Shown here piece after piece: positions 28,403 through 56,995 of a DNA stretch of 64,000 nt. Position numbers and translations under genes: made by a program. A model generated the notes under the pieces. That model saw only the letters and a list, made by a program, of their open reading frames with translations. It did no database searches and had not been told where the DNA came from. Each line of letters begins with the position of its first letter. Position 1 is the stretch's first letter. Source of the DNA: Flavobacterium limnophilum (lineage in GTDB: Bacteria > Bacteroidota > Bacteroidia > Flavobacteriales > Flavobacteriaceae); contig NZ_CP114289.2 in assembly GCF_027111315.2 (NCBI RefSeq), positions 4,439,649 to 4,503,648 of the forward strand, in the 5' to 3' direction.

Positions 28403-28446
28403 ATGATTGCAATCATAATCAATCGGTTAAAGTATTGCCAAATTTG
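28403..28446 (+). promoter_or_regulatory. Crp/Fnr-type operator and -7 box before the nos operon
   Basis: The operator ATGATTGCAATCAT (28403-28416) is a perfect palindrome. The -7-like box CAAATTTG ends at 28446, exactly 36.5 bases from the operator centre. This matches six other promoters in the window and suggests activation from about -41.5. Confidence 0.75.
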
Positions 28447-28472
28447 TACAAGAAATTTAAAACCTAACTTTT

Positions 28473-28946
28473 ATGTACAAATTATCTTTATTTATTGTTG
28501 CACTAATTATGTTTACTTCTTGCGGAAAGAAGGAAAATTCAAATGAAGACTTTTCAACAGGAGAAGCTGCTACCGAAACGGCCGCAGATCCATCTACTTA
28601 TGATCCAAATAGAGGTTTGGGGAAATATAGTTCTGTGGATTTAGGCGAAAAACTCGATGTGGCAATGGCTACCGAAGGTGAAAAAATCCAATCTGTAAAA
28701 TGTTCTGCTTGTCATAAATTGACAGACGAAAAATTGGTTGGACCAGGTTGGAAAGGAGTTACGGAACGTAACAAACCCGAGTGGATTATGAACTTCATTA
28801 CCAATCCGGATCCAATGATTGACAAAGACCCTAAACTTCAAGCCCAATTGGAACTTTGTTTGTTACGTATGCCAAATCAATCCCTTACCGATGCCGATGC
28901 AAGAAATATTCTGGAGTTCATGCGCCAAAACGACGGTGTAAAATAA
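28473..28946 (+). CDS. mono-haem cytochrome c lipoprotein of the nos operon
   Basis: A 157-residue lipoprotein (FTSC, Cys17) with one haem c site CSACH (Cys77, Cys80, His81) and a probable axial Met133 in LRMPNQSLTDADA. The fold is that of a class I cytochrome c, with the usual C-terminal NILEFMR helix. It is the first gene of the clade II nos operon, 32 bases before nosZ, and is the likely electron donor to NosZ. Confidence 0.92.
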   Translation: MYKLSLFIVALIMFTSCGKKENSNEDFSTGEAATETAADPSTYDPNRGLGKYSSVDLGEKLDVAMATEGEKIQSVKCSACHKLTDEKLVGPGWKGVTERNKPEWIMNFITNPDPMIDKDPKLQAQLELCLLRMPNQSLTDADARNILEFMRQNDGVK

Positions 28947-28978
28947 ACAATCGAAAACCAAATTAATAACCAATTAAC

Positions 28979-30955
28979 ATGAAAAATAAATTTTTGAAAG
29001 CGACGCTGGCTCTTACCATGGCAGCCGTATTTTTTACTTCTTGTAAACCTAAGAATTCAGGAGATGTCGTGAGTGGTGATGCTGCGCAAAAAGCGTATGT
29101 GGCACCGGGAAAATACGATGAATTTTACAATTTTGTTTCGGGAGGTTTTAGCGGTCAAGTGAGCGTTTACGGATTGCCAAGCGGAAGACTTTTGAGAGTG
29201 GTTCCTGTTTTTTCGGTAGATCCACAAAGTGGTTATGGCTACAGCGAAGAAACCAAACCAATGTTGAACACTTCTCACGGATTTGTACCTTGGGACGATC
29301 AACACCACGTTGAAATGTCTCAAACCAATGGTGAAGTGGACGGTCGTTGGCTTTTTGCCAATGCCAATAATACGCCTAGAATTGCTCGTCTGGATTTAAA
29401 AACTTTTAGAACCGCCGAAATTATTGAGTTGCCAAACAGTGCAGGAAATCACTCTTCCCCATTTATTACCGAAAATACGGAATATGTGGTGGCTGGAACT
29501 CGTTTTAGCGTTCCACCGGATAATGCCAACGGTGATGTGCCAATCAACACATACAAAGAAAATTTCAAAGGATATTTGAGTTTTGTAAAAGTGGGCAAAG
29601 AAGGACAAATGGATCTTTCTTTTCAAATAGAAGCACCGGGAGTAAACTTCGACTTGAGCCACGCCGGTAAAGGCAAATCGCACGGTTGGTTTTTCTTCTC
29701 GTGTTACAATACTGAGCAGGCAAATACATTACTTGAAGTAAATGCCTCCCAAAAAGATAAAGATTTTATCATGGCTGTGAACTGGAAGAAAGCTGAAGAA
29801 TACATCAAAGCGGGTAAAGGAAAAAAAGTGCCTGCAAAATATGTTCACAATACTTGGGACGAAAAAACACAAACAGCCAAATCTGAAATGAAATCGGAAG
29901 TGTTGGTTTTAAGTGCCAAAGAATTAAAAGACATTTGTTACATGATTCCTTGTCCAAAATCACCTCACGGTTGTGATGTGGATCCAACGGGAGAATACAT
30001 TGTGGGTTCAGGAAAACTGGCTGCCTTGATTCCTGTATTTAGTTTCGACAAATTGCAAAACGCCATCAAAAACAAACAATTTGACGGAGATTATGAAGGA
30101 ATTCCAGTGGTGAAATATGAAGCAGCTCTTCACGGAGAAGTTCAAAAACCAGGTCTTGGTCCATTGCATACCGAATTTGACGGAAAAGGAAATGCTTATA
30201 CCACGTTCTTCGTTTCTTCCGAAGTGGTGAAATGGGACATCAAATCATTGAAAGTCTTGGATAGGGTTCCAACGTATTATTCTGTGGGTCACTTGTGTAT
30301 TCCTGGTGGAGACAGCAAAAAACCATTCGGAAAATACTTGATCGCCTACAATAAAATTACCAAAGACAGATACTTGCCAACGGGACCTGAATTGGCCCAA
30401 AGTGCACAGATATTTGACATTAGCGGTGACAAAATGCAGTTGATTCTGGATTTTCCAACCATTGGAGAACCCCATTATGCACAAGCTGCTCCAGCCGATT
30501 TGATTCGAAATAACGGCCAGTTGAAGTTCTTCAAAATTGAAGAAAACAAACACCCATTTGCGACCAAAGGAGAAAAAGAGGCCAAAGTGGTTCGAGAAGG
30601 CAATAAAGTGCATGTCTACATGACATCGATTCGTTCCCACTTTGCATCGGACAATATCGAAGGAATAAGAGTGGGTGACGAGGTTTATTTCCACGTAACC
30701 AACTTGGAACAAGATTGGGATGTGCCTCACGGATTTGCCATAAAAGGAGCAGACAATGCAGAATTGTTGATTATGCCTGGCGAAACTTGCACCTTAAAAT
30801 GGGTTCCTAAAAAAGTGGGTATCTTCCCATTCTATTGCACCGATTTCTGCAGTGCTTTGCACCAAGAAATGCAAGGTTACGTAAGAGTTTCTCCTGCAGG
30901 AAGCAAAGTGCCTTTGACTTTTAGCTTGGGAACAAATCTTCCAGCAGTTAAATAA
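28979..30955 (+). CDS. nosZ: nitrous oxide reductase, clade II (Sec-exported)
   Basis: Reduces N2O to N2 in the periplasm with the multicopper CuZ and CuA centres. The 658-residue protein has a Sec/lipoprotein-type signal (FFTSC) rather than a twin-arginine signal, the hallmark of the atypical clade. DDQHHVEMS and the HSS, SHGW and CPKSPHGCDVDP segments supply CuZ ligands. The C-terminal cupredoxin domain carries the CuA motif with Cys620, Cys624, His628 and Met631. The operon order cytochrome c-nosZ-nosL-nosD-nosF-nosY lacks nosR, as usual for clade II. Confidence 0.97.
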   Translation: MKNKFLKATLALTMAAVFFTSCKPKNSGDVVSGDAAQKAYVAPGKYDEFYNFVSGGFSGQVSVYGLPSGRLLRVVPVFSVDPQSGYGYSEETKPMLNTSHGFVPWDDQHHVEMSQTNGEVDGRWLFANANNTPRIARLDLKTFRTAEIIELPNSAGNHSSPFITENTEYVVAGTRFSVPPDNANGDVPINTYKENFKGYLSFVKVGKEGQMDLSFQIEAPGVNFDLSHAGKGKSHGWFFFSCYNTEQANTLLEVNASQKDKDFIMAVNWKKAEEYIKAGKGKKVPAKYVHNTWDEKTQTAKSEMKSEVLVLSAKELKDICYMIPCPKSPHGCDVDPTGEYIVGSGKLAALIPVFSFDKLQNAIKNKQFDGDYEGIPVVKYEAALHGEVQKPGLGPLHTEFDGKGNAYTTFFVSSEVVKWDIKSLKVLDRVPTYYSVGHLCIPGGDSKKPFGKYLIAYNKITKDRYLPTGPELAQSAQIFDISGDKMQLILDFPTIGEPHYAQAAPADLIRNNGQLKFFKIEENKHPFATKGEKEAKVVREGNKVHVYMTSIRSHFASDNIEGIRVGDEVYFHVTNLEQDWDVPHGFAIKGADNAELLIMPGETCTLKWVPKKVGIFPFYCTDFCSALHQEMQGYVRVSPAGSKVPLTFSLGTNLPAVK

Positions 30956-30971
30956 TTATTTTCTTTAATCT

Positions 30972-31004
30972 AAAGGGAACAAAGTCTCTTTGTTCCCTTT
31001 TTTT
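30972..31004 (+). terminator. terminator between nosZ and nosL
   Basis: AAAGGGAACAAAG pairs perfectly with CTTTGTTCCCTTT around a 3-base loop and is followed by a T-run. Because nosL-nosD-nosF-nosY follow on the same strand without a clear promoter, it may lower their expression relative to nosZ. Confidence 0.8.
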
Positions 31005-31019
31005 ATACCAACAATTAGT

Positions 31020-32039
31020 ATGAACACTTCAAAAATAGCTGTATTTTCAAAAGTAGTTCTTTTGGCTGTGAGTGCTTTGTTTTTTGCTTCCCTTTGGTTT
31101 CCAATGTGGAGAATTGAACTCGAAGCACCTCAATATCCCGAAGGTTTGGTCTTGCAATTGCACGCCAACAAAATTGGCGGAGATGTCGAAATCATCAACG
31201 GATTGAATCATTACATCGGAATGAAAACCCTGCATACGGAGGACTTTCCCGAGTTTCAAATATTGCCTTACATCGTCGGATTTTTTGGATTATTTGCATT
31301 GGCAATGGTTTTTGTGAATAAAAGAAAAGGCGTGATTGCACTGTTTTCGTCTTTTATACTTTTCGGAGTTTTGGCAGGCGTGGATTTTTACAGATGGAAT
31401 TATGAATACGGACACAATCTCGATCCAAATGCCGCAATCGTGGTGCCGGGAATGGCGTATCAACCGCCTTTGATTGGTTATAAACAACTGTTGAATTTTG
31501 GGGCTTATTCCATTCCGGACGTTGGGGGTTGGATGTTGATTGCAGCGGGAGTATTGCTTTTTATTGTTGTGGCAAAAGAAACGCATTTGGTAAACAGGAT
31601 TTTTAGAAAACCCAAAATAGACGCCGTTTTAATTTTGTTCTTGTCCCTTTCTTTTATGTCCTGTGGAGATTTCAAAGTCGAGCCCATTAAATTGAATGCC
31701 GACAATTGCGACTTCTGTAAAATGAGCATTGCCGACGGAAAATATGCGGCCGAAGTAATTACCCAAAAAGGGAGAGTGTACAAATTTGACGATATTAGCT
31801 GTATGGTCAATTATTGCAAAGAAAACGCCAATACAAAAATGGGGGCTTATTACGTAAGTGATTTCACCAAAGACAACAATCTAATTCCAGCCGAAACTGC
31901 TTTTTTTCTTTCTGGAGGAACGATTCAAAGTCCGATGCACGGTGGAATCATTGCTTTTCCGTCTGAAAAAGAAAGTAAAGAATTTGCCGCCAAATTGAAT
32001 GCAAAACCTATTAATTGGGAAACGATTATATCTAAATAA
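31020..32039 (+). CDS. nosL: NosL-domain protein with N-terminal membrane domain
   Basis: A 339-residue protein in two parts. Residues about 1-200 form a membrane domain with a signal-anchor-like first segment and hydrophobic stretches such as LPYIVGFFGLFALAMVF, GVIALFSSFILFGVLAG and WMLIAAGVLLFIVVA. Residues about 210-339 match NosL, the copper chaperone for NosZ (NCDFCKMSIADGKYAAEVITQKG, KFDDISCMVNYC, ETAFFLSGG, SPMHGGIIAF). FMSCGD at the junction is the former NosL lipobox. The start was moved to the ATG giving MNTSKIAV because the longer frame begins inside the terminator. Confidence 0.88.
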   Translation: MNTSKIAVFSKVVLLAVSALFFASLWFPMWRIELEAPQYPEGLVLQLHANKIGGDVEIINGLNHYIGMKTLHTEDFPEFQILPYIVGFFGLFALAMVFVNKRKGVIALFSSFILFGVLAGVDFYRWNYEYGHNLDPNAAIVVPGMAYQPPLIGYKQLLNFGAYSIPDVGGWMLIAAGVLLFIVVAKETHLVNRIFRKPKIDAVLILFLSLSFMSCGDFKVEPIKLNADNCDFCKMSIADGKYAAEVITQKGRVYKFDDISCMVNYCKENANTKMGAYYVSDFTKDNNLIPAETAFFLSGGTIQSPMHGGIIAFPSEKESKEFAAKLNAKPINWETIISK

Positions 32040-32071
32040 TCTTTGTCAAAGTTCAAAACTTTGACAAAGAT
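32039..32071. repeat. intercistronic hairpin (CTTTGTCAAAG type)
   Basis: ATCTTTGTCAAAGT and ACTTTGACAAAGAT pair perfectly between nosL and nosD. A close relative lies at 41871-41902, where the stem differs by a compensated base pair. Confidence 0.75.
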
Positions 32072-32085
32072 ATTTTTCACAAACA

Positions 32086-33315
32086 ATGAAAAAAATCTTT
32101 TACATATTTCTTTTGTTTTCTTCCTTTCTTCAAGCCGGAGTGATTGAAGTTGGTGCCAATAAACCCATAAAATCAATCAAAAAAGCCATCGCATTGGCCA
32201 AAGTGGGCGACACGGTTTTGGTTCACAAAGGACATTATAAAGAAGGAAACATCATCATCAACAAGAGGATAGTTTTTATTGGCAAGAATTACCCAATTCT
32301 GGACGGTCAAAAGAAATACGAAGTCTTGTCCATAAAAGCCGACGGCGTAATTGTTAGAGGCTTCAAGGTAATAAAATCGGGTTATGCCACGCTCGAAGAT
32401 CCTTGTGGAATCAAGGTGTACAACAGAAAGAACGTCATCATCCAGAACAATATCCTCGACGATAATTTCTTCGGAATCTACATTCAAAACGGAGCCAATT
32501 GCATTGTCAAAAACAACAAGATTTTGGCTTACGGCAAAGAAGAACAACGTATCGGCAACGGAATTCATTGCTGGAAAAGTGACAAACTCCAAATTATTTC
32601 CAACACCATTTCGGGTCATCGCGATGGCATTTATTTTGAATTTGTAACCAATTCGATAATTAAAGGGAATTTTTCCACCAAGAATATCCGCTACGGATTG
32701 CACTTTATGTTTTCCAATGACGATGCCTATATTTCGAATGTTTTCAAAAACAATGGCGCCGGAGTTGCCGTGATGTTTACCAAAAGAGTCAAGATGCTCA
32801 ACAATCATTTCGAGGAAAATTGGGGCGATGCCGCTTACGGATTGTTCCTCAAAGAAATCTCGGACAGTTACATCATCGGGAACAAATTTGCTCGGAACAC
32901 TTCGGGAATCCACATGGAAGGAACGACCCGGATTTTGGTTCAAAAAAACATCTTTGAAGCCAATGGTTGGGGAATGAAAATCCAGGCCAGTTGTATGGAA
33001 AATGAAATAAAAAGCAATAATTTCTTGGGCAACACTTTTGATATCAGTACTAACGGAAGTCTGGTTCTAAATACCTTCAACGGCAATTATTGGGACAAAT
33101 ACGAAGGCTATGATTTAGACAAAAATGGAGTGGGCGACGTGCCATTTCATCCCTTGAGTTTGTTCGCCGTCATTACCGAAAACAATCCTTCGGCGATGCT
33201 GCTTTTCAGGAGTTTCATGATTACGCTTTTGGACAAATCGGAGAAAATATTGCCCAGTATCACGCCAGATAATTTTGTTGACAAAACCCCATTAATGCAT
33301 TCGTTACCCTTATGA
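32086..33315 (+). CDS. nosD: NosD periplasmic copper-maturation protein
   Basis: A 409-residue exported right-handed beta-helix protein (signal to LQAG) with repeated NNxI...N-type turns (GIKVYNRKNVIIQNNILDDNFFGIYIQNG; NGIHCWKSDKLQIISNTISGHRDGIYFEF). NosD works with NosF and NosY in assembling the CuZ centre of NosZ, probably in sulfur delivery. Its stop overlaps the nosF start (ATGA), showing translational coupling. Confidence 0.95.
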   Translation: MKKIFYIFLLFSSFLQAGVIEVGANKPIKSIKKAIALAKVGDTVLVHKGHYKEGNIIINKRIVFIGKNYPILDGQKKYEVLSIKADGVIVRGFKVIKSGYATLEDPCGIKVYNRKNVIIQNNILDDNFFGIYIQNGANCIVKNNKILAYGKEEQRIGNGIHCWKSDKLQIISNTISGHRDGIYFEFVTNSIIKGNFSTKNIRYGLHFMFSNDDAYISNVFKNNGAGVAVMFTKRVKMLNNHFEENWGDAAYGLFLKEISDSYIIGNKFARNTSGIHMEGTTRILVQKNIFEANGWGMKIQASCMENEIKSNNFLGNTFDISTNGSLVLNTFNGNYWDKYEGYDLDKNGVGDVPFHPLSLFAVITENNPSAMLLFRSFMITLLDKSEKILPSITPDNFVDKTPLMHSLPL

Positions 33316-34019
33316 TTGAAATTAAAAACATATATAAAAAATTCGGAAAATTAGAAGTCTTGAACGATGTCAATCTTGTTTTCAACAAAGGAGAATGCAT
33401 CGCGCTAATTGGTCCAAACGGTTGCGGAAAAACCACCTTGATAAAAAGTATTTTGGGAATGGTCATTCCTACCAAAGGTAATATTTTGTTTGATGAAAAA
33501 TCGATATTAAATAAATATAAATATCGCAACCAAATTGGCTATATGCCTCAAATAGGGCGTTATCCCGATTACATGACGGTGGGTCAAATCATCGAAATGA
33601 TCAAGAAAATCCGAAATTCAGACGAAGTTTTGGACGAAGATTTAATCAAGGCTTTCGAACTCGAAAAAATATTCGACAAACAAATGCGAACACTTTCCGG
33701 CGGAACCACCCAAAAAGTGAGTGCGATTTTAGCTTTCTTGTTCAATCCCGACGTGTTGATTTTGGACGAACCAACGGCAGGTTTGGATCCATTGGCTTCG
33801 GAAATATTGAAGGAAAAAATTATCAAGGAACGAGAAAAAGGAAAACTCATCTTGATTACTTCCCATCTTTTGAGCGAACTCGACGACATGATCAGCCAGA
33901 TTATTTTTATGCAAGACGGCAAAGTCCATTTTCATAAAACCATAGCCGATTTGTTGGAATCAACAAACGAACAAAAAATATCCAAGGCAATTTCAAGTAT
34001 TTTGAAATCAAATAACTAA
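33312..34019 (+). CDS. nosF: NosF ABC transporter ATPase
   Basis: A 235-residue ABC ATPase. Walker A is GPNGCGKTT (residues 34-42), the signature is LSGGTTQK and Walker B is VLILDEPTAGLDP. It drives the NosDFY complex that supports CuZ assembly. It is coupled to nosD by a 4-base overlap. A repeat element of ~55 bases separates it from nosY. Confidence 0.95.
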   Translation: MIEIKNIYKKFGKLEVLNDVNLVFNKGECIALIGPNGCGKTTLIKSILGMVIPTKGNILFDEKSILNKYKYRNQIGYMPQIGRYPDYMTVGQIIEMIKKIRNSDEVLDEDLIKAFELEKIFDKQMRTLSGGTTQKVSAILAFLFNPDVLILDEPTAGLDPLASEILKEKIIKEREKGKLILITSHLLSELDDMISQIIFMQDGKVHFHKTIADLLESTNEQKISKAISSILKSNN

Positions 34020-34074
34020 AATATAAATTAATCTCATTTCGGCTCCCTCTCCTTTGGAGAGGGTTGGGGTGAGG
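34019..34074. repeat. interspersed repeat copy B, inside the nos operon
   Basis: The same unit as at 27691-27746, with the CCCTCTCC/GGAGAGGG hairpin. It occupies the whole nosF-nosY gap and creates a false longer start for nosY. Confidence 0.85.
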
Positions 34075-34089
34075 AAAAAAACGAAAGCA

Positions 34090-34857
34090 ATGAACAGAAT
34101 CATTAAAATCATATTTCTCGACATTCTAAAAAACAAGATCGTGTTGGCTTACACCTTGATTTTAGCTTTGCTTTCCTGGAGTTCTTTCGGATTGGAAGAC
34201 AATTCGGCCAAGGGATTGCTCACGATTTTGAACGTAATTTTATTTACGGTTCCCTTGGTTTCCATCCTTTTTGCAACGATTTATTTGTACAACAGCTCCG
34301 AGTTTATTGAACTTTTGTTGAGCCAACCGGTGAAAAGAAAGAAGATTTGGTTGAGTTTATTCCTCGGTTTGTCGCTGTCAATGGTTTCGGCTTTTTTTAT
34401 TGGAGCAGGAATTCCACTTTTGGTTAATGCACCAGACAGCGTTGGGATAATGATGGTAATTGTGGGCTGTTTGATTTCCCTGATTTTTGTGGCTTTGGCG
34501 TTTTTGAGTTCGATTCTTACCCGAGACAAAGCCAAGGGAATTGGCATTTCCATAATGACGTGGTTGTTTTTTGCCCTGCTTTTTGATGGAATGGTTTTGT
34601 TCTTGTTGTTCCAATTTTCAGATTATCCCATCGAAAAAGCAATGGTGGCGGTTACCGCTTTTAGTCCTATCGATTTGGCGCGAATCCAAATCTTGTTGCA
34701 GCTTGACGTCTCGGCAATGATGGGTTATACTGGAGCTATTTTCAAGGATTTTTTCGGAACCGGATTAGGATTAACGGTTTCATTCCTATTATTGTGTTTG
34801 TGGATAATAATTCCGTTTTATGTTTCCCTTAAAAAATTTAAAAATAAAGATTTGTAA
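34090..34857 (+). CDS. nosY: NosY ABC transporter permease
   Basis: A 255-residue inner-membrane protein with about six hydrophobic segments (IVLAYTLILALLSW, ILFTVPLVSILFATIYLY, MVSAFFIGAGIPLLV, MMVIVGCLISLIFVALAFL, SIMTWLFFALLFDGMVLFLLF, LTVSFLLLCLWIIIPFYV). LLSQPVKRKKIW matches the NosY/ABC-2 family. The start giving MNRIIKII was chosen because upstream codons fall in the repeat. It partners NosF. Confidence 0.93.
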   Translation: MNRIIKIIFLDILKNKIVLAYTLILALLSWSSFGLEDNSAKGLLTILNVILFTVPLVSILFATIYLYNSSEFIELLLSQPVKRKKIWLSLFLGLSLSMVSAFFIGAGIPLLVNAPDSVGIMMVIVGCLISLIFVALAFLSSILTRDKAKGIGISIMTWLFFALLFDGMVLFLLFQFSDYPIEKAMVAVTAFSPIDLARIQILLQLDVSAMMGYTGAIFKDFFGTGLGLTVSFLLLCLWIIIPFYVSLKKFKNKDL

Positions 34858-36039: not shown

Positions 36040-36083
36040 CAAAGCACTTAATTTTCAAACACTTATTTTATGAGTGCAATCAT
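36040..36083 (-). promoter_or_regulatory. operator and -7 box before the fasciclin gene
   Basis: On the minus strand the operator reads ATGATTGCACTCAT (one mismatch to the palindrome) at 36070-36083. The -7-like GTGCTTTG ends at 36040, again 36.5 bases from the centre. Confidence 0.6.
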
Positions 36084-36160: not shown

Positions 36161-36206
36161 AAAAAAAAGCAATACATTGACCTTTGCCAATGTATTGCTT
36201 TTTTTT
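36161..36206 (-). terminator. terminator after the NO reductase gene
   Basis: GCAATACATTG pairs with CAATGTATTGC, with an A-run on one side and a T-run on the other. It overlaps the last bases of the NO reductase gene. Confidence 0.85.
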
Positions 36207-38445
36207 ATTTGTTGGTTTTGTTTTTCAAAGTCAAATCAAACACGAACCAGGCAAAGGCGACAATTCCGATTCCGAAGATGCTGTCTCCTATGGCGCGAAG
36301 CCATTTCAATACAATCATTGTTGGTTCCTGCATCAATTCGGAGGAACGGGCATGCCACATTCCTTTTTCAATGCTTTCAATGGCTTGCCAAATTCCTATT
36401 GGCAATAAACTCAACATAGCCATTAAAAACAGACCGATATTTAGTGACCAGAAAGTAGTTCCAATCAGCTTGTTGTTCCATTGGATATTTCGGTACAAAC
36501 TTCTCAGAACGAATAATATCAATCCTATTCCAAGCATTCCATAAACGCCAAACAAAGCGGTATGTCCGTGAAGCGGCGTGGTATTCAATCCTTGAACATA
36601 ATACAACGCTATCGGCGGATTAATTATAAATCCGAAGATTCCGGCTCCAAGGAAATTCCAGAACGATACGGCCAGCATAAAATAGATGGGCCATTTGTAA
36701 TCTTCAATCCATTTTGTGGATTTTGAAAGTTTGTAATTATGATAGGCTTCATAACCGATAAGTGTCAAGGGCACAATTTCCAATGCACTAAAAGTGGCTC
36801 CCAAGGCCATTACGGCAGTTGGAGTTCCGGTAAAATACAAATGGTGAAAAGTTCCCAAAATTCCGCCAGACATAAATACGATGGTGGAAAACAAAACATT
36901 CAGAGTCGCCGTTTTTGTTTTCAAAAGGCCTAAACGTACAAAAAGGAAAGCGATTACAACTGTTGCAAAAACCTCGAAGAATCCTTCAACCCACAAATGG
37001 ACAACCCACCATCTCCAGTATTCGGCAATGGCAAGATTGGTTTGTCTTCCCCACATCAATCCTGCGGAATAGAAAAGCGCAATGGCAGAACAGGAAATTA
37101 AAAACATGATGATCAGATTCTTTTCTTCCGTTTTTCTTTTTAAGATGGGCAAAAGCGGACGAACCATTAAAGCCAACCACAAGAAAAGTCCAATGAGCAA
37201 GAAAATTTGCCAAAAACGACCTAAATCTACATATTCATAACCTTGATGTCCAAACCAGAAATTTTCAATTAGGTTCAATTTTTGCATCACTCCAAACCAT
37301 TGGCCTGCCATAGATCCCAAAACAATAATTAGCAAGGCAATAAACAGGAAGTTTACTCCGAAACACTGAAATTTAGGGTCCTTGCCTGAAACCGCCGGGG
37401 CAATGTACAATCCTGTGGCAAGCCAAGCGGTGGCAATCCAAAAAATGGCTAATTGGGTGTGCCAAGTTCTGGTTACGGCATAAGGCAAGATTTGGTCTAT
37501 TGGAATTCCGTATAAACCACCGCCTTCAACACCGTAATGTGCCGTAATGATTCCTAACAACATTTGTAGAATCATCAATAAGCTGACCACCCAGAAATAT
37601 TTTTTCACCAAATGCATCGATGGTGTCATTCCTTGTTTCAAAAGCGGGTCTTCCGCAGGAGTGGGTAAGGTTTCGTCCTCGCCCGATTTTGCGTGGTAAA
37701 AAACCAATAGTCCGATACACAAAATCAACAAAATGATGCTTACCCCGGACCAAGCCATCAAATCGGTGGTGGCTTTGTTTCCCACCAATTCATCGGCAGG
37801 CCAGTTGTGCGTATAGGATATGTCTGAATTGGGACGATTGGTAACCGTCGCCCAAGTTGCCCAAAAGAAGAAGGCACTCATTTTGTGCATTTTAGCTTCG
37901 TCTTTGATGGCGTTTTTAGGGATGGCATAATCTTTTCGCAACTGGTCAAATTCGGGCGAATCCATGAACAATCCCTTGTAATAGTTGCTTAAATGCTTGA
38001 TGGCCAAAGCCCTGTTTTGCGAAAGGGTTATGGTTTTCGAGTTGTCGTCATATTTGTTGTCACGCAAATCTGCCTGTAAACGGATTTTAAGGGCAGCCTG
38101 TTTTTCCTTGTCCAACGCATCAAAATCTTTTCCAAAATCTTTGTTGGCATAAATATTCAAGATGAAAACGGCTTCCCTGTGAAGCCAGTCGGCTGTCCAA
38201 TCCGGGGCAACATAAGCTCCGTGACCCCAAATGGTTCCCACTTCCTGTCCACCCATGCTTTGCCAAATATTTTGGCCGTCTTTTATTTCCTCTTCCGTGA
38301 AAATAACTTCATTGTTCACCGAAATTATTTTTTCGGGGACAGGAGGAGCCTGTTGGTAAATTTCGTAGCCATAATAGCCCAAAACGCAAAAGGACAGGAT
38401 TGTAACCAATGCAAAACCTATCCACAATTTCTTTTCTCTATTCAT
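36205..38445 (-). CDS. norZ: quinol-dependent nitric oxide reductase (qNOR)
   Basis: Reduces NO to N2O using quinol. The 746-residue single-chain form has the N-terminal periplasmic extension of qNORs (QNIWQSMGGQEVGTIWGHGAYVAPDWTADWLHRE) fused to a 12-helix heme-copper-type core. Metal-site motifs are RTWHTQLAIFW, VVHLWVEGFFEVFA, GTFHHLYFTG and HGHTALFGVYG. I chose the start giving MNREKKLWIG, which places the -7 box 32 bases upstream. Its product N2O feeds NosZ in the neighbouring operon. Confidence 0.95.
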   Translation of the reverse strand: MNREKKLWIGFALVTILSFCVLGYYGYEIYQQAPPVPEKIISVNNEVIFTEEEIKDGQNIWQSMGGQEVGTIWGHGAYVAPDWTADWLHREAVFILNIYANKDFGKDFDALDKEKQAALKIRLQADLRDNKYDDNSKTITLSQNRALAIKHLSNYYKGLFMDSPEFDQLRKDYAIPKNAIKDEAKMHKMSAFFFWATWATVTNRPNSDISYTHNWPADELVGNKATTDLMAWSGVSIILLILCIGLLVFYHAKSGEDETLPTPAEDPLLKQGMTPSMHLVKKYFWVVSLLMILQMLLGIITAHYGVEGGGLYGIPIDQILPYAVTRTWHTQLAIFWIATAWLATGLYIAPAVSGKDPKFQCFGVNFLFIALLIIVLGSMAGQWFGVMQKLNLIENFWFGHQGYEYVDLGRFWQIFLLIGLFLWLALMVRPLLPILKRKTEEKNLIIMFLISCSAIALFYSAGLMWGRQTNLAIAEYWRWWVVHLWVEGFFEVFATVVIAFLFVRLGLLKTKTATLNVLFSTIVFMSGGILGTFHHLYFTGTPTAVMALGATFSALEIVPLTLIGYEAYHNYKLSKSTKWIEDYKWPIYFMLAVSFWNFLGAGIFGFIINPPIALYYVQGLNTTPLHGHTALFGVYGMLGIGLILFVLRSLYRNIQWNNKLIGTTFWSLNIGLFLMAMLSLLPIGIWQAIESIEKGMWHARSSELMQEPTMIVLKWLRAIGDSIFGIGIVAFAWFVFDLTLKNKTNK

Positions 38446-38476
38446 TGTATTTCTTTTTTTATTCTTAATAATGATG

Positions 38477-38527
38477 CAAATATATGCAAACAAAATAATA
38501 GTGGATAAGTTTATCTACTATTATTTT
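38477..38527 (-). promoter_or_regulatory. 36-base palindrome and -7 box before the NO reductase gene
   Basis: AAAATAATAGTGGATAA at 38492-38508 and its partner at 38511-38527 form arms with a single mismatch around GT. A perfect TAnnTTTG box (TATATTTG, 38477-38484, minus strand) ends 32.5 bases from the centre. The sequence GATAAGTTTATC differs from the ATGATNNNNATCAT class, so a second regulator is likely. Confidence 0.6.
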
Positions 38528-38596: not shown

Positions 38597-39826
38597 TTAT
38601 AAAGGAGGATTGTTTTTGACTTTTTTAATGGAAAAATAGGCGACATATCCAATTCCGATGAATAACAGTATCGCAATGCCAAATAGAATGTAATTCACGT
38701 AGGGAATAGGGATGTAGCTAAAGGAAGCCAGACCCTGCACGGCCAAAACAATTTCGTTCAACAACACTCCAATCGAGAACAGGAATAGTCCATATTTTAT
38801 GTTCTTGTTGATGATTATCAGGTGATTGGCGTAAATGTAAAAAAGTATAAACAAGCTGATTATGGCCAGCAAAACCAAATGTAAATAGGCAATGACGATG
38901 GGTCTAAATCCAAAAGCCAATTCGCTAAGAAAAGGAATTGTCGATCCCAATTGCAGCAACAATTTGATGCTCAAGGCAAAACTAACGAACAACAAAATGT
39001 ATCGCAATAGTGGAGAAAAATTTTTCAGGAAATCTTTCTTTGTTTTTACTAAAATTATCAAAAGTTTGAACCAAGCAAAAACTTGGATTAGTGCGGCAAT
39101 CACCGCAATTGCATAGAGCCAAAGAGGCAAATCCAGCCAAAGCGTTGACAAAAAATAAGCGGGTACACAAGCTGCAGCAAACAATTTAAACGAAGTTTCA
39201 TAAAAGGGATTTTCAGATTTTTGAAGGTTTAAAAAACCAAAAGCCAAACCTATGCAAGCAAAGAAAAACCAACCGTTATACTGAAAGTGCAGATAAAAAT
39301 AAATCGAGGAATGGTACAAATCCAACACGACATTTTTGCTCGCCATCATATAGGCGAGATAAAAAGTACCCAAAGACGAAATGACATTGAAAAACACGGC
39401 CGCTTTTAACCAATTTTTTGCAATACAATCGGTATCCAATAATTTTAAATCCTTGATAAATCGGTAGGCAAAAACATAGGAAACGAATATGGATGCCGTG
39501 GATAATACAATGGAAACCAATCCGTAGCCTTCGATGATGAAGGAAACCAGCATTCCGTAGGAACAAATCAAGTTGGCAATAATGATGTTTTTATATTTAT
39601 TCCCGTCGAAATTTTGAATTTTTGTTTGAAGAAAATACACCATCAAAGCCATTAAAGTGTGGCTTAACCAACCTGCAAAAGCAAAATGCGAATGCGAATG
39701 TTGCAGATGTTTTTGGTCAAAATACGGAAATTCGAAACCTATTTTATATCGCATCAAAACACCAAGTGCCGCAACGATACAAAGGTTCAACAACGAAATT
39801 TTTAGCCAAAATTTAATCTTCAACAT
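38597..39826 (-). CDS. polytopic membrane protein with heme-copper-oxidase-like histidines
   Basis: A 409-residue protein with about 12 hydrophobic segments. Near the N-terminus, HLQHSHSHFAFAGWLSH (His40, 43, 45, 47, 56) resembles the helix-II haem-ligand region of NO reductase/oxidase subunit I. YHSSIYFYLHFQYNGWFFF (His172, His180) and a later FRPIVIAYLHLVLL add further membrane histidines. It is translationally coupled (one-base overlap) to the Crp/Fnr gene and sits just upstream of qNOR. A haem- or copper-binding role in NO metabolism is inferred, with no close characterised family recognised. Confidence 0.65.
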   Translation of the reverse strand: MLKIKFWLKISLLNLCIVAALGVLMRYKIGFEFPYFDQKHLQHSHSHFAFAGWLSHTLMALMVYFLQTKIQNFDGNKYKNIIIANLICSYGMLVSFIIEGYGLVSIVLSTASIFVSYVFAYRFIKDLKLLDTDCIAKNWLKAAVFFNVISSLGTFYLAYMMASKNVVLDLYHSSIYFYLHFQYNGWFFFACIGLAFGFLNLQKSENPFYETSFKLFAAACVPAYFLSTLWLDLPLWLYAIAVIAALIQVFAWFKLLIILVKTKKDFLKNFSPLLRYILLFVSFALSIKLLLQLGSTIPFLSELAFGFRPIVIAYLHLVLLAIISLFILFYIYANHLIIINKNIKYGLFLFSIGVLLNEIVLAVQGLASFSYIPIPYVNYILFGIAILLFIGIGYVAYFSIKKVKNNPPL

Positions 39827-40419
39827 TAATAATATATTTTGTGATTGATAATTTCCACTTTATTGTTTTTGTTCATTTGGGCAAAAACCCGAATAACGGT
39901 TTCTACCCGCAATCCTGTATAATTGGCGATTTCCTGTCGGGTGTACGGAATCAAGATTTTTTCATTGGCACATCCTGATTTTTTCTTGAAGGAATTTAAA
40001 AAAGCGACAATCCTGAACTCGGGTTTTTGATTGATGATTTCTTTCGAAGTTCTTGATTTCGAATGAATTTTTTGTGCCATTAAAATCAAAAAGAATTTCT
40101 GGATCGACGGATATTCATCGAGGATTTTGAAAAACTTGTCCTTGGATAATTTTATGATGGTGCTGTCCTGAATCGTCACGGCTTTGGAAGGATAGGTTTC
40201 ATTGATAAACAATGGAGGTTCGCCAAAACCGTCTCCTTTGCAAAAAATCCCTTGGGTAAATTCCTTGCCCTCGTCATTCGAATTGAATAATCTTACACTT
40301 CCATCAAGGATTTGGTAATAAAAATTAGCTACTTCATCTTCATCAAAAATAATTTCATTTTTCTTGTATTTTTTGGAAACGGCGCCCCAAGAATAAAGTA
40401 AATCTATGTCTATTTGCAT
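39826..40419 (-). CDS. Crp/Fnr-family transcription regulator
   Basis: A 197-residue regulator with an N-terminal cyclic-nucleotide-like sensor domain (about 15-115) and a C-terminal helix-turn-helix (IPYTRQEIANYTGLRVETVIRVFAQM). Only Cys60 and Cys150 are present and there is no N-terminal cysteine cluster, so it is not an oxygen-sensing FNR. It is closer in type to NO-responsive DNR/NnrR regulators (inference). The recognition helix VETVIR keeps Glu173 and Arg177 of the FNR pattern but has Ile176 where E. coli FNR has Ser212. The ATG giving MQIDID was preferred over upstream TTG starts. Its promoter carries the operator class found across this island, which suggests autoregulation. Confidence 0.9.
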   Translation of the reverse strand: MQIDIDLLYSWGAVSKKYKKNEIIFDEDEVANFYYQILDGSVRLFNSNDEGKEFTQGIFCKGDGFGEPPLFINETYPSKAVTIQDSTIIKLSKDKFFKILDEYPSIQKFFLILMAQKIHSKSRTSKEIINQKPEFRIVAFLNSFKKKSGCANEKILIPYTRQEIANYTGLRVETVIRVFAQMNKNNKVEIINHKIYY

Positions 40420-40483: not shown

Positions 40484-40559
40484 CAAATTTAATTTTTATA
40501 AAGTTAAAAAAATTATGACCGGAATCATAAAAATAATTTTAATTCTAGACCTATATTTG
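40484..40559. promoter_or_regulatory. divergent promoter with one central operator (crp / copper operon)
   Basis: The operator ATGACCGGAATCAT (40515-40528) lies exactly midway between two consensus -7 boxes: TATATTTG on the plus strand (40552-40559) and TAAATTTG on the minus strand (40484-40491). Each ends 37.5 bases from the operator centre. One bound dimer could therefore serve both directions. Confidence 0.75.
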
Positions 40560-40563
40560 CATT

Positions 40564-40938
40564 GTGAAAAAGATAATATTCCTATTAGCGTTGTTCATGT
40601 TACTGAAGCCGGTACTTCCGGTTATAGATTATGTAGTTAATTATGAGTATATTTCTACCGTGCTATGCGAAAATAAGGCCAAGCCAAAAATGCATTGCAA
40701 TGGTAAATGTCATTTGATGAAAGAGCTTGCCAAAACTTCCGAAAATGAAGCGCCAATTTCTTCAGACAAAAAAATGGCTGCACAACAATTTGAAGTCTTG
40801 TTTTTGGAAGAAATCAAATCTTTCAAAATTGCACCCATTTATTTTTTCGAAACACAACAAACAAACAGCAACTATTCTAATTTATACTTCCGTTTGAATA
40901 CTGCTTCTGTATTTCATCCGCCGATTTTCATTTCATAA
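40564..40938 (+). CDS. small exported Cys/His/Met-rich protein
   Basis: A 124-residue protein with a hydrophobic N-terminus (KKIIFLLALFMLLKPVLPVIDYVV) and a metal-binding-like cluster MHCNGKCHLM (Met43, His44, Cys45, Cys49, His50, Met52) plus Cys35. Such Cys/His/Met clusters suit Cu(I). It starts with GTG only five bases after the -7 box, so the transcript is probably leaderless. It opens an apparent operon with the YtkA-like lipoprotein and the OprC-like receptor. Copper handling is inferred. Confidence 0.75.
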   Translation: MKKIIFLLALFMLLKPVLPVIDYVVNYEYISTVLCENKAKPKMHCNGKCHLMKELAKTSENEAPISSDKKMAAQQFEVLFLEEIKSFKIAPIYFFETQQTNSNYSNLYFRLNTASVFHPPIFIS

Positions 40939-41020
40939 TTTTTCAAGTTTTTACATTGACTTTATTCGATAATGATACTATCGATCTGTCTTTTATTATC
41001 AAAATTTAAAAAAATATAAA

Positions 41021-41860
41021 ATGAAATTTTTAAGAATATTACCATTGGTTTTAGTAACCATTTTTGCGGCATGTACTTCAGACAATGATGATGCGCCAGT
41101 TGACGAATTAGCAGGATTGACCAAATTTAAAGAAATCTCCAACACGACCCACACCATAGAATTGTACAAACACATGGGCGGTCTGGAGCAAGGTTTCAAC
41201 GAAATCGCATTAAAAATCAAGGACAAAACAAGCAATCAATACATAACAAATGCCACCGTTTCCTGGATGCCTTTGATGCACATGACGATGAAGACGCACT
41301 CTTGTCCAAAATCGCCGGTGACGAAAGTATCAACAGAAGGGTCTGTTTATGAAGGATACATTGTTTTCCAAATGGCTCAAAACGCCACGGAATATTGGGA
41401 TTTAAAAATAGATTACACCATCAACGGCACGGCATATACTGCCACGTCTGTTATTGATGTTCCCGCTTCTACAAAACAAAGAGTGACCACTTTTACGGGT
41501 TCTGACAATGTGAAATATATTGCTGCTTATGTTGACCCACACCATCCAAAAGTAGGAATCAACGATATGGTGGCAGGTGTTTGGAAGATGCAGGATATGA
41601 TGACTTTTCCGGTTGTGGACAACTACAAATTGAAAATTGACCCAAGAATGCCAAGTATGGGCAATCATAGTTCTCCCAACAATGTGGATTTATCCCAAAT
41701 AGCTGCAGGTGATTTATACAACGGAAAATTGTCGTTGACCATGACGGGTTATTGGAAAATAAATTTGCAATTACTCAACGCTTCAGGAACTGTCTTGAAA
41801 GGCGAAACCATCACCGATGCTGTTCCGGCAAGCAGCATTTACTTCGAAATAGAGTTTTAA
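41021..41860 (+). CDS. YtkA-like lipoprotein, probable copper-binding
   Basis: A 279-residue lipoprotein (FAAC, Cys18) with two beta-sandwich halves of the YtkA/FixH-like type. The first has SWMPLMHMTMKTHSCP and the second has KMQDMMTFPVVDNYKLKIDPRMPSMGNHSSPNNV. Both show the Met/His-rich MP-M-H pattern associated with copper-related YtkA domains. It is followed, after a hairpin, by an OprC-like TonB receptor. A periplasm-facing or surface copper-capture role is inferred. Confidence 0.75.
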   Translation: MKFLRILPLVLVTIFAACTSDNDDAPVDELAGLTKFKEISNTTHTIELYKHMGGLEQGFNEIALKIKDKTSNQYITNATVSWMPLMHMTMKTHSCPKSPVTKVSTEGSVYEGYIVFQMAQNATEYWDLKIDYTINGTAYTATSVIDVPASTKQRVTTFTGSDNVKYIAAYVDPHHPKVGINDMVAGVWKMQDMMTFPVVDNYKLKIDPRMPSMGNHSSPNNVDLSQIAAGDLYNGKLSLTMTGYWKINLQLLNASGTVLKGETITDAVPASSIYFEIEF

Positions 41861-41870
41861 AAACACAAAA

Positions 41871-41902
41871 ATCTTTGCCAAAGTATAGGCTTTGGCAAAG
41901 AT
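41871..41902. repeat. intercistronic hairpin (CTTTGCCAAAG type)
   Basis: ATCTTTGCCAAAG and CTTTGGCAAAGAT pair perfectly. It resembles the hairpin at 32039-32071 except for a compensated C-G in place of T-A. Confidence 0.75.
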
Positions 41903-41920
41903 GATTTTACAATTTTAAAA

Positions 41921-43918: not shown

Positions 43919-43923
43919 TGTTG

Positions 43924-47858: not shown

Positions 47859-47902
47859 ATGATAATTATCAGGTTTTATGCTGATGGCTTTCACGACCTT
47901 TG
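47859..47902 (+). promoter_or_regulatory. operator and -7 box before the unknown 604-residue protein
   Basis: ATGATAATTATCAG (one mismatch at the last base) at 47859-47872. The -7-like GACCTTTG ends at 47902, exactly 36.5 bases from the centre. Transcription would start near 47908, which supports the ATG at 47935 as the real start. Confidence 0.6.
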
Positions 47903-52401: not shown

Positions 52402-52740
52402 AATATTTAATTGTTAGTTTATTGATTTTAAAATTTTTTCGTCCAGTTTAATTAAAGTGTCATCACATTTTGGGCAATATTCATGTTCGCCATTCAAATA
52501 ACCGTGAACCGAACAAATGCTAAACATTGGCATATATACTATGCATTTGGTTCTCAAATGTTCGTTTTCTTTCAGGTACTGATTGTCGTTTATTGTTTTC
52601 ATTATATTTATTCTTTATTCTTTATTGTTAATTGATCGTTTTTAAGTTTTTTTCGTCCAGTTTAATTAAAGTGTCATCACATTTTGGACAAAACTCGTGT
52701 TCGCCGTTCAAATAACCGTGAACGGGGCAGATACTGAATA
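52346..52740. repeat. partial tandem duplication in the nrdD 3' region
   Basis: About 93 bases at 52648-52740 (zinc-finger end of nrdD) recur at 52434-52526, with the first ~40 bases identical. A second pair, 52544-52602 and 52346-52401, matches around CATTTGGTTCTCAAATG. Offsets are ~214 and ~200 bases, so a ~200-base unit was duplicated. Confidence 0.8.
52414..52602 (-). CDS. small NrdD-like zinc-finger protein (duplicated segment)
   Basis: A 62-residue protein. Its first half (YLKENEHLRTKCIVY) matches the start of the 54-residue radical protein, and its second half (SICSVHGYLNG, YCPKCDDTLIKLDEK) matches the zinc finger at the end of NrdD. It thus looks like a hybrid copy made by the local duplication, with the zinc-binding residues kept and the RVxGY motif lost. 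It may be functional or a relic; the intact frame favours the former slightly. Confidence 0.7.
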   Translation of the reverse strand: MKTINDNQYLKENEHLRTKCIVYMPMFSICSVHGYLNGEHEYCPKCDDTLIKLDEKILKSIN

Positions 52741-54781: not shown

Positions 54782-55504
54782 TTATTCTTTGTCCGAGAAG
54801 AATTTCTCTAACGCTTTTGCTTTTGGAAACAAAATATTGCTTTCCAAATGGATGTGTTTGTGTAAATCTTGCTCAAACTCTTCTAGCATGGCATACGTTA
54901 CTCTATAGGTATTGCAGGCATCTTCCGGTGGCGTGTAATTATTGGTCAAGACTGCAATTTTTTTGAAACGTTCGCCTTCATTGTCGTGTTCTTCCATCAT
55001 CATCTTGATGGGATTGTTTACGGTTCCAAAATGTGGAGGATCGACCGAATCATGACTTTTCGTGGCTCCCATCATTTCTTTGATGAACGGAAACAAAATC
55101 AATTCCTCTTTTTTCATGTGTTGTGCCAATTCGCCAGCGCTTCTCAAGAATAATTCGTTGATTTGGAACAATTCAGGGTGATTGTTTCCGTGAACGTTGC
55201 ATAATTTATCCAAATATTGAATGATTACCGGAGTTTTTTGTTCTACAAATCGGTGGTGGGTTTTCTCGATATAAACCACCAATAAATCTAGTGGCCAAGA
55301 ATTAAAGTCTATTCCATAGTCGTTTTTTAAATCCATTACAGTGTTCAATTCTTCCAATAAATTGGCTTCATTTAGGTTCTTTATTTTGCAGACTTCTTCA
55401 AGGGTTCGTTCTCCTTTGCAGCAAAAATCAATTCCATATTTTGAAAAGATGGCCGCTGTCCTGAAGTCTTGTGCGACAAAGTTACCAATAGTGTTTTTTC
55501 CCAA
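54782..55504 (-). CDS. ric: iron-sulfur cluster repair di-iron protein (RIC/YtfE/ScdA)
   Basis: A 240-residue protein with the N-terminal ScdA_N domain (VAQDFRTAAIFSKYGIDFCCKGERTLEE) and a hemerythrin-like domain with His/Glu ligands (EKTHHRFVE, HMKKEELILFP, MMEEHDNEGE, HIHLESNILFPKA). It repairs iron-sulfur clusters damaged by NO. It is the first gene of the ric-nrdD-nrdG-Rrf2 operon, which protects and supplies anaerobic DNA synthesis. Its promoter carries the shared operator. Confidence 0.95.
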   Translation of the reverse strand: MGKNTIGNFVAQDFRTAAIFSKYGIDFCCKGERTLEEVCKIKNLNEANLLEELNTVMDLKNDYGIDFNSWPLDLLVVYIEKTHHRFVEQKTPVIIQYLDKLCNVHGNNHPELFQINELFLRSAGELAQHMKKEELILFPFIKEMMGATKSHDSVDPPHFGTVNNPIKMMMEEHDNEGERFKKIAVLTNNYTPPEDACNTYRVTYAMLEEFEQDLHKHIHLESNILFPKAKALEKFFSDKE

Positions 55505-55582: not shown

Positions 55583-55626
55583 TAAATTTGCAGGTTTTTA
55601 AATGTATTTTATATGATTTATATCAT
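55583..55626 (-). promoter_or_regulatory. operator before ric-nrdD operon
   Basis: ATGATTTATATCAT (55613-55626) has both half-sites perfect. On the minus strand CAAATTTA ends at 55583, 36.5 bases from the centre; its last base differs from TTTG, so this is the weakest -7 box of the set. Confidence 0.55.
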
Positions 55627-55744
55627 ATTCCATTTTTATTATCATTTTCTTATCAACAGATGTTGATAAAAAAAAGAAGCCTAAAGAGGTTCTTTTCGAG
55701 GTTTGCGGATGATGCAATTTTATGGAAAAAACATTTCTTTAAGC

Positions 55745-55788
55745 ATGATTGGAATCATACTCAACCAAATATTTCAATGCGAACTTTG
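55745..55788 (+). promoter_or_regulatory. operator and -7 box before the DUF438 gene
   Basis: ATGATTGGAATCAT (55745-55758) has both half-sites perfect. GAACTTTG ends at 55788, 36.5 bases from the centre. The 320-base gap between ric and the DUF438 gene holds this and the ric operator and no gene. Confidence 0.72.
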
Positions 55789-55824
55789 CGACATTAAAAA
55801 GTAGAAATATAACAGACATTAATA

Positions 55825-56790
55825 ATGAGTGAGACCTTAAATACAACTTCACTTCCCGAAGGACATCCGGTGAGTGTTTATTATCAAGAAAAAGAAATCA
55901 TCAATATACTTTTAGGAGAATTGTTGGCAGTGGATGCCAAAACAGAATTGCAGAAATACACGAATATTTTCAACCAGCTCCAAACCATAGAAAAACGATT
56001 TGCTCGAAAAGAAAACCAACTTTTTCCTTTTTTGGAAAAGAAGGGATGGAATGGGCCTTCGCAGGGAATGTGGTCTTTTCATGATAACTTGAGGGAACAA
56101 TTCCGGTTGTTGCGCAAAAATATGGATGCCAAGGACTTTGACAAAATTAATTCGGACACGCCTTTTTTAGTCGATGGAATTAATCGATTGATGAATACCG
56201 AAGACATGGTTTTGTTTCCCAATTCCTTGAATATGCTCTCTGAAGAAGATTGGATTGCGATGCGAAAAGGCGAAGAAGAAATTGGTTGGATGCTCCCGGA
56301 AACGCCTGCTTCTTTCCCGGCCGTGGAATACATTCACCCAAGTCAGGATTTTACCAAAAGAGAAATGACATTTTCTTTGGAAAACACTTCACATTATGAC
56401 GAAGGTTACATGACGGTGGAGCAAGTAAATTTGCTGTTTAAAACGATGCCTTTGGATTTAACTTTTGTGGATGAAAACGACAAAGTGATTTTCTATAATC
56501 GTGGCGACGAACGTGTTTTTCCTAGAAGTGCCGGAATCATTGGTCGTGAAGTGAAGTTTTGCCATCCGCCAAAAAGTGTGGGGACGGTGCTCAAAATCAT
56601 AGAAAGTTTCAAAAATGGTACTCAAAACGAAGCTTCATTCTGGATTAATTTCAAGGAACGCCTGATTTACATCCGTTATTTTGCCGTGCGCGATGCCGAC
56701 AAAAACTACAGAGGCGTGATCGAAATCTCGCAAGACATCACCGATATCAAGAAAATTGAAGGTGAACAACGATTGTTGGATTGGGAATAG
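55825..56790 (+). CDS. DUF438/hemerythrin-like protein with C-terminal PAS domain
   Basis: A 321-residue cytoplasmic protein. The N-terminal DUF438 part (GHPVSVYYQEKEIINILLGELL) is followed by a hemerythrin-like helical bundle (NIFNQLQTIEKRFARKENQLFPFLEKKG, FHDNLREQF, NTEDMVLFPNS), then a PAS domain (about 205-315, KTMPLDLTFVDENDKVIFYNRGDERVF, IEISQDITDIKKIEG). This family often accompanies NO-stress genes and may bind di-iron or haem. Its target is unknown. It is divergent from ric, and both have their own operators. Confidence 0.88.
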   Translation: MSETLNTTSLPEGHPVSVYYQEKEIINILLGELLAVDAKTELQKYTNIFNQLQTIEKRFARKENQLFPFLEKKGWNGPSQGMWSFHDNLREQFRLLRKNMDAKDFDKINSDTPFLVDGINRLMNTEDMVLFPNSLNMLSEEDWIAMRKGEEEIGWMLPETPASFPAVEYIHPSQDFTKREMTFSLENTSHYDEGYMTVEQVNLLFKTMPLDLTFVDENDKVIFYNRGDERVFPRSAGIIGREVKFCHPPKSVGTVLKIIESFKNGTQNEASFWINFKERLIYIRYFAVRDADKNYRGVIEISQDITDIKKIEGEQRLLDWE

Positions 56791-56951
56791 GCAGCGGTTT
56801 TTGCAATCAATTACAGAAAAAGTATTATCCAACAGAGGAATTTTGATGCGTTTCTATTAATGCTAAAACTTATAAAGGACTAGTTCAATTGTTGTTTTGG
56901 TCTTACAGCTTTTTAATTTATGGGATAATATAAAAAATAGGATGTTCTATT

Positions 56952-56995
56952 ATGATTTGAATCATAAAAAAAGAAGGAAATGCCTTTTATTTTCG
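56952..56995 (+). promoter_or_regulatory. operator and -7 box before nrfHA
   Basis: ATGATTTGAATCAT (56952-56965) has both half-sites perfect. TATTTTCG ends at 56995, 36.5 bases from the centre, one base off TAnnTTTG. Confidence 0.7.

Follow-up and report, generated by a model that had tools for sequence, protein, structure and literature searches.

The window analysed here is a 64,000-nucleotide stretch of the Flavobacterium limnophilum genome (C1:4439649-4503648 within a genome of 4.5 Mb; contig NZ_CP114289.2). It carries seven copies of the palindrome ATGATNNNNATCAT, which lie ahead of the nos operon, a gene for a CRP/FNR-family regulator (REG) that diverges from a copper-uptake operon, and genes for a fasciclin-domain protein, a hemerythrin-PAS protein, NrfH and NrfA, Ric/YtfE and a protein without a family match. 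Each operator is followed, at a nearly constant distance, by a box resembling the -7 promoter of Bacteroidota, TAnnTTTG. The base after the half-site core ATGAT divides the sites into a T-type, ATGATTNNAATCAT, and an A-type, ATGATAWWTATCAT, and we consider it probable that these are read by two paralogous class II activators of the CRP/FNR family, the T-type by REG and the A-type by a cysteine-bearing FNR homologue encoded elsewhere in the genome. Genes within the window were named from NCBIfam and Pfam profile matches. The operators and boxes are as follows.

28403..28416, + strand: T-type operator ATGATTGCAATCAT, preceding the nos operon (cytochrome c, NosZ, NosD)
28439..28446, + strand: -7 box CAAATTTG of nos, ending 36.5 bases from the operator centre
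36070..36083, - strand: T-type operator ATGATTGCACTCAT, preceding the fasciclin-domain gene at 35460-36014
36040..36047, - strand: -7 box GTGCTTTG of the fasciclin gene
40515..40528, no strand assigned: T-type operator common to REG and the copper-uptake operon, ATGATTCCGGTCAT as read on the - strand
40484..40491, - strand: -7 box TAAATTTG of REG, 37.5 bases from the operator centre
40552..40559, + strand: -7 box TATATTTG of the operon at 40564, 37.5 bases from the operator centre
47859..47872, + strand: A-type operator ATGATAATTATCAG, preceding the gene at 47935-49749, which has no family match
47895..47902, + strand: -7 box GACCTTTG of the gene at 47935-49749
55613..55626, - strand: mixed operator ATGATATAAATCAT, with one A and one T half-site, preceding ric/ytfE, nrdD and nrdG
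55583..55590, - strand: imperfect -7 box CAAATTTA of ric/ytfE
55745..55758, + strand: T-type operator ATGATTGGAATCAT, preceding the hemerythrin-PAS gene at 55825-56790
55781..55788, + strand: -7 box GAACTTTG of the hemerythrin-PAS gene
56952..56965, + strand: T-type operator ATGATTTGAATCAT, preceding nrfH and nrfA
56988..56995, + strand: imperfect -7 box TATTTTCG of nrfH

The palindrome is perfect at 28403, 55613, 55745 and 56952 and has one mismatch at 36070, 40515 and 47859. Across the whole window, 14 places lie within one mismatch of it, against 4.8 expected, and none of 100 shuffles reached 14. The spacing was examined at TTTG offsets of 20 to 39 past the operator in eight promoters, with 5000 dinucleotide shuffles as the reference. 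An exact TTTG ends 30 nucleotides (nt) past the operator, or 36.5 from its centre, at 28403+, 36070-, 47859+ and 55745+, and 31 nt past it, or 37.5 from its centre, in both directions from 40515; TTTG occurs at no other offset between 20 and 39 in the eight window promoters. The two remaining boxes, TTTA for 55613- and TTCG for 56952+, are imperfect and lie at 30 nt, which leaves exact TTTG in six of the eight. This best two-offset bin of six was reached in 0 of the 5000 shuffles, where the largest value was four. The first-pass annotation of this DNA had thus located the seven sites correctly and was right that so constant a spacing is hard to obtain by chance, whereas its count of six promoters at 36.5 and two at 37.5 stands only if the imperfect boxes are included. 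Its suggestion of an activator-type site near -41.5, with the half-site ATGAT in place of TTGAT, is supported at the class II position, and on sequence grounds the prediction that these promoters are served by a CRP/FNR-type activator of class II, with its centre near -41.5, is well supported.

Of 22 copper-uptake promoters (the own copy, 40552-40566, and relatives within L052-L094), 20 have a start codon whose first base is the fifth past the G of TTTG, the 22 being those of 27 loci that remain when L063, L064, L073, L077 and L090, with no operator or a different distance, are left out. The copper-uptake mRNA is probably leaderless, and since such a start would lie five bases past TTTG, the operator centre would be at -42.5 where the spacing is 37.5 and correspondingly at -41.5 where it is 36.5. 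Candidate sigma-70 promoters near 40515 were rejected, six being found against 6.6 expected.

In the whole genome the perfect palindrome occurs 25 times, against six for the reversed pattern. Among the 15 copies outside long frames, TTTG ends 29-31 nt away on a side in 10 and at exactly 30 in six, whereas the 10 copies inside frames of at least 190 codons have TTTG at 29-31 in two cases and at 30 in none. When the composite of operator, spacer and box was allowed up to three mismatches, the genome gave at least 195 matches at the 36.5 spacing, where the control gave at least 88, and 264 at the 37.5 spacing, where the control gave 100. Because the control counts are this high, many weak composite matches are noise and only the best are credible.

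The exact operator followed by 22 arbitrary bases and TAnnTTTG was also sought in 149 Flavobacteriaceae genomes, where it occurs 187 times in 83 genomes and, as the reversed control pattern, not at all. In relatives, an operator with TTTG at 29-31 lies near REG in 40 of 47 loci, the closest named relatives of REG being mostly from Flavobacterium, and the fasciclin promoter has operator and TTTG in 34 of 37; orthologous promoters across relatives are not independent events. These counts decide against an explanation by chance, according to which AT-rich upstream DNA contains ATG and ATCAT words and the TTTG boxes were found because they were sought. It could draw on the noise among most three-mismatch matches, and on a comparison within the window: of the seven further palindromes outside the first-pass list, TTTG ends 30 or 31 bases on for one of 14 sides (14932, - side), against six of 14 sides for the listed sites (Fisher P 0.077, weak alone). 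The shuffles, the family counts and the conservation in orthologous promoters already refute this explanation, and we give it practically no weight.

Members outside the window were drawn from a subset of the loci of the same genome, where the operator had to lie outside long frames and to have TTTG at 29-31. Their gene names are partly our own reading, and several two-mismatch matches from the same loci look like chance. By contig position they include:

831127: narK, T-type
1070557: a TPR protein with a mixed operator and no evident link
1399000: hypA, with hydrogenase genes on the divergent side
1455646: pckA
1733351: corA, T-type, with no evident link
2177235: ferredoxin and 2-oxoacid oxidoreductase genes
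2512786: hemN (the name is our own reading), A-type
2520607: a small ccoS-like gene, then cbb3 oxidase genes
2523104: a heavy-metal P-type ATPase, adjacent to the FNR homologue
2707973: a 2-oxoacid oxidoreductase

The T-type is found ahead of nos, the nor-linked REG with copper uptake, the fasciclin gene, hemerythrin-PAS, nrf and narK, and the A-type ahead of hemN, the cco genes, the FNR homologue, the ferredoxin oxidoreductases and the gene behind 47859. Of the window sites, five are T-type (28403, 36070, 40515, 55745 and 56952) and one, 47859, is A-type, while 55613 pairs a T half-site with an A half-site. The first-pass annotation had described a single seven-member regulon in which every site precedes a gene of anaerobic or nitrogen-oxide (N-oxide) metabolism. 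The gene association is borne out at five sites and is not shown for 36070 (fasciclin) and 47859 (no family match), and the single regulon is not supported, as base 6 gives two classes that are kept in orthologous promoters.

The conservation of base 6 was followed in sets of hemN, nos and fnr promoters, each consisting of the 30 best-matching loci per query and not of every genome (the queries are present in 74 of 81 genomes for hemN and in 52 of 199 Flavobacterium genomes for nosZ). In all 30 hemN promoters base 6 is A, base 9 is T, the two bases that separate them are always A or T, and TTTG lies at 30. All 30 nos promoters have T at base 6 and A at base 9, with varied bases 7-8, and TTTG at 30 (21 promoters) or 31 (nine); fixed bases 6 and 9 beside varied bases 7-8 point to selection on the former. 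Where both promoters of one genome were in hand, hemN was A-type and nos T-type in eight of eight, and since both classes are kept within one genome, base composition does not explain the split. Upstream of the FNR homologue, where sites were scored within 120 nt and with the box facing away from fnr, a site is present in 26 of 30 loci and has A at base 6 in 24 of the 26. TTTG, which was a selection rule in all three sets, and the A six bases ahead of its G, which was not selected for, are invariant; in 21 of the 30 nos promoters G stands in place of the T of TA, and for that reason the nos-type -7 boxes are weaker. The promoter of REG itself is mostly T-type (half-sites T42:A7 in 40 of 47 loci, and T18:A6 in 27 of 38 loci). 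A Fisher test of 7 against 9 own-genome promoters is not relied on: its labels were post hoc, 40515 was counted twice, and it omitted corA, an A-type site and the sites of mixed or G type.

Four proteins of the genome exceed the PF13545 cut-off for CRP/FNR proteins, two weaker matches resembling other helix-turn-helix proteins, and three of the four have an E-x-x-I-R recognition helix. REG belongs to the CRP/FNR family, with a cNMP_binding domain (PF00027, E 4e-18) followed by a Crp-type helix-turn-helix (PF13545, E 3e-8) and sequence matches to the FixK2, FNR, DNR and CAP structures. Conserved iron-sulphur (Fe-S) cysteines were not found in it, every cysteine column being present in at most 22 of 47 REG proteins, so that it is not an FNR proper. 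Its recognition helix, GLRVETVIR, is found in 35 of 39 proteins (two have one change and two were not read). The FNR homologue (G000:C1:2523161-2523838) has six cysteine columns, an N-terminal C-x2-C and four more, each present in 29 or 30 of 30 proteins, and a different helix, GTATES-x-IR, whose E, I and R are kept in every one of the 30. The third protein, 857704, has a compact N-terminal cysteine group, C-x2-C-x4-C.

The distribution of REG follows nosZ: an orthologue (E<1e-50) is present in 44 of 52 nosZ-bearing Flavobacterium genomes and in seven of 147 that lack nosZ. A-type hemN operators are kept in 13 of 30 genomes in which no REG-like protein was found. The composite pattern occurs in 62 of 89 genomes with a close FNR homologue and in 21 of 60 without one (P 5e-5). 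In 28 of 30 loci an operator lies upstream of the FNR homologue with a TTTG box directed away from fnr, and towards fnr TTTG is absent at 29-31. This suggests that the divergent gene, the P-type ATPase in our genome, is activated; judged by this layout, the site perhaps represses fnr itself. A distant REG clade (L220-L228) consists of REG paralogues divergent from an operon for a small membrane protein plus a truncated haemoglobin of group III. In five of these nine loci the gene of the small membrane protein stands behind a T-type operator and box; in the three of those five that were tested (L225, L226 and L228), the next gene matches 2ig3, a group III truncated haemoglobin, with E values of 2e-8 to 2e-12. 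L222, without a T-type site, likewise has the truncated haemoglobin.

We infer from the above both the assignment of each protein to its class and the activation, signals and transcript starts in the following arrangement. Dimers of CRP/FNR proteins on the operators would act as class II activators of the Bacteroidota -7 promoter, the dimer centred near -41.5 replacing the upstream promoter element, and the two paralogues would recognise a common half-site core, ATGAT, and differ at the next base. REG, linked to nor and nos, would read ATGATTNNAATCAT and turn on nos, itself, copper uptake, fasciclin, hemerythrin-PAS, nrf and narK, with nitric oxide (NO) as the most likely signal. The FNR homologue would read ATGATAWWTATCAT and turn on hemN, cco, the ferredoxin oxidoreductases, the hydrogenase genes and the gene behind 47859 at low oxygen; ATGATAATTATCAT is the candidate A-type site for the 2523161-2523838 protein. 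DNA bending matters near the dyad of a CRP-type site, and because the base-6 split lies nearer the dyad, indirect readout may be the mechanism. In general form, we lean slightly towards the view that, across Flavobacteriaceae, oxygen-linked and NO-linked paralogues with the common operator ATGATNNNNATCAT and class II position avoid cross-talk through a single difference in each half-site, the base pair at position 6 (A or T) that adjoins the core, to which the two conserved recognition helices TATES-x-IR and LRVETVIR correspond. A correlation of CRP-type helix residues 180 and 181 with motif bases is described in the portion of PMC1274295 consulted.

Several observations weigh against this two-reader arrangement, and some of them would suit a single regulator, the FNR homologue or 857704, that reads all ATGAT operators while base 6 tunes affinity or induction order. 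The E-x-x-I-R motif is common to all three candidates, and 857704, which combines it with an FNR-like set of cysteines, could recognise sites of either class. In G192 and G196 (93% and 91% complete), which have nosZ and T-type sites, REG was not found. The site at 55613 is mixed; nrfH is T-type in our genome, A-type in one relative and without a site at the standard used in a third; and the site nearest the gene behind 47859 is A-type in just 10 of 18 relatives, eight having the T-type or another form there, with L092, L093 and L095 carrying a T-type site at the usual distance. Further points against the two-reader arrangement are that six more nosZ genomes hold a distant REG only (within about 7 kb of nosZ in four of them), that four of the nine loci of the distant clade have no T-type operator, and that a T-type site lies before corA and a mixed one before the TPR protein. 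A single regulator nevertheless has to contend with the complete split of bases 6 and 9 between the hemN and nos sets while bases 7-8 vary in nos, with the tracking of nosZ by REG, with the T form in the promoters of REG and of the distant clade, and with the residues directly ahead of the common E, which differ between the groups and are conserved within each. We regard a single regulator as unlikely.

The split may also be correct with the A-type read by another CRP/FNR protein, either 857704 or one of the family's CRP/FNR proteins of about 350 amino acids, and this too seems to us improbable. The compact N-terminal cysteine group of 857704 would fit such a role, and in a number of the family's genomes (e.g. 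G013, G040, G110 and G124) an exact composite lies some 60-120 nt upstream of a match to the longer proteins. In favour of the FNR homologue are the A-type site just upstream of its gene in 24 of 30 loci and the association of its presence with the composite, which is far from perfect: the composite occurs in 21 of 60 genomes without a close homologue and is missing from 27 of 89 with one. The assignment of the T-type to REG and the A-type to the FNR homologue remains the reading that we prefer.

The genes behind the window operators, and those next to them, are the following.

28473..34857, + strand: nos operon, after operator 28403
28473-28946, + strand: cytochrome c-like protein of the nos operon
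28979-30955, + strand: NosZ (TIGR04246, 942 bits)
30990-32039, + strand: open reading frame of the nos operon without a family match, NosL-like on our own reading
32086-33315, + strand: NosD, nos operon
33312-34019, + strand: ABC ATPase, nos operon
34054-34857, + strand: open reading frame of the nos operon without a family match
35460-36014, - strand: fasciclin-domain gene, after operator 36070
36205..38493, - strand: norB (NorB cytochrome-c-like domain and COX1)
38597..39826, - strand: protein of 409 amino acids between REG and norB, without a family match
39826..40419, - strand: REG, CRP/FNR-family regulator with recognition helix GLRVETVIR; an open reading frame from TTG extends to 40473
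40564..43918, + strand: copper-uptake operon
40564-40938, + strand: first gene of the copper-uptake operon, without a family match
41021-41860, + strand: YtkA-like protein, copper-uptake operon
41921-43918, + strand: TonB receptor, whose top match is a copper-receptor model, with a score under that model's cut-off
47935-49749, + strand: protein of 604-623 amino acids, after operator 47859
54782-55504 (ric/ytfE), 52628-54739 (nrdD) and 51564-52292 (nrdG): after operator 55613-
55825-56790, + strand: hemerythrin-PAS gene, after operator 55745
57038-57661 (nrfH) and 57670-59172 (nrfA), + strand: after operator 56952

The 409-amino-acid protein adjoins REG in 41 of 47 loci of relatives; norB was found in two (L052 and L054), the loci being at most 12.6 kb. 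The protein may be an unrecognised N-oxide protein. Searches of Pfam and NCBIfam at E 0.001 and of PDB sequences at E 0.1 gave no match for the 47935-49749 protein. At 604 amino acids it shows 63-84% identity across three aligned relatives, with invariant cysteines, and its structure model is of low confidence (mean predicted local distance difference test 53, predicted template modelling score 0.46).

Elsewhere in the genome, a perfect A-type operator and a -7 box occur at C1:1606269, where an intact reading frame of the type of about 41 amino acids was not seen. At the matching place, some relatives (among L293, L295, L296 and L298) encode, on our own reading, a single-helix membrane protein of about 41 amino acids, and for this reason a small-RNA reading of the site was rejected. 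At L149 4940-5240 (G000:C1 ~1606440-1606740) a stretch with a terminator-like hairpin lies where, on our own reading, an ABC transporter ATPase gene ends, and this stretch has a near-identical second copy about 180 nt on. A second N-oxide cluster, L151 1142-4818 (G000:C1 ~829141-832817), encodes a hemerythrin-domain protein and NarK, and, on our own reading, an Rrf2-like regulator and a Ric-like protein.

With operator form, spacing and box written as a rule, candidate NO and low-oxygen regulons can be listed in these genomes. Nitrous oxide reductase is common in Flavobacterium (52 of 199 genomes), so the control of nos matters, and the system would show cleanly, in a natural setting, how paralogous regulators whose sites overlap are kept apart.

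Among known systems, FNR of Escherichia coli acts from a class II position near -41.5. The FNR homologue resembles it in family and in the N-terminal C-x2-C; the E. coli site, unlike those found here, is TTGATnnnnATCAA, and we take the third N-terminal cysteine of the homologue to be off the E. coli spacing and an Ile to stand at the place of E. coli FNR Ser212. DNR of Pseudomonas, the NO-responsive activator of nir, nor and nos, is like REG a CRP/FNR protein with nor/nos linkage, no Fe-S cysteine motif and an N4-centred palindrome, but it belongs to another phylum and another promoter type, and the proposed half-site of REG is ATGATT, not TTGAT. DNR binds TTGATnnnnATCAA, as given in the part of PMC1274295 consulted, whereas the nos sites begin ATGATT in 30 of 30 promoters. 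HcpR1 and HcpR2, regulators of hcp, are likewise CRP/FNR regulators of N-oxide genes without the cysteine motif; the part of PMC1274295 consulted reports the second of them from Bacteroides and P. gingivalis. Their motifs, TGTGAnnnnnnTCACA, TTGACnnnnGTCAA or GTAACnnnnGTTAC in the same part of that source, are unlike the operators here. The proposed sites of REG differ from the HcpR2 motif GTAACnnnnGTTAC, and no Hcp name was found among the 30 window proteins scanned with NCBIfam. A word search of the main text of PMC1274295, a source consulted in part, did not find 'ATGAT', 'Flavobact' or 'Cytophaga'. Finally, NssR of Campylobacter is, going by a reference title in PMC1274295, a CRP/FNR regulator whose regulon includes a truncated haemoglobin, and the distant REG clade adjoins a group III truncated haemoglobin operon.

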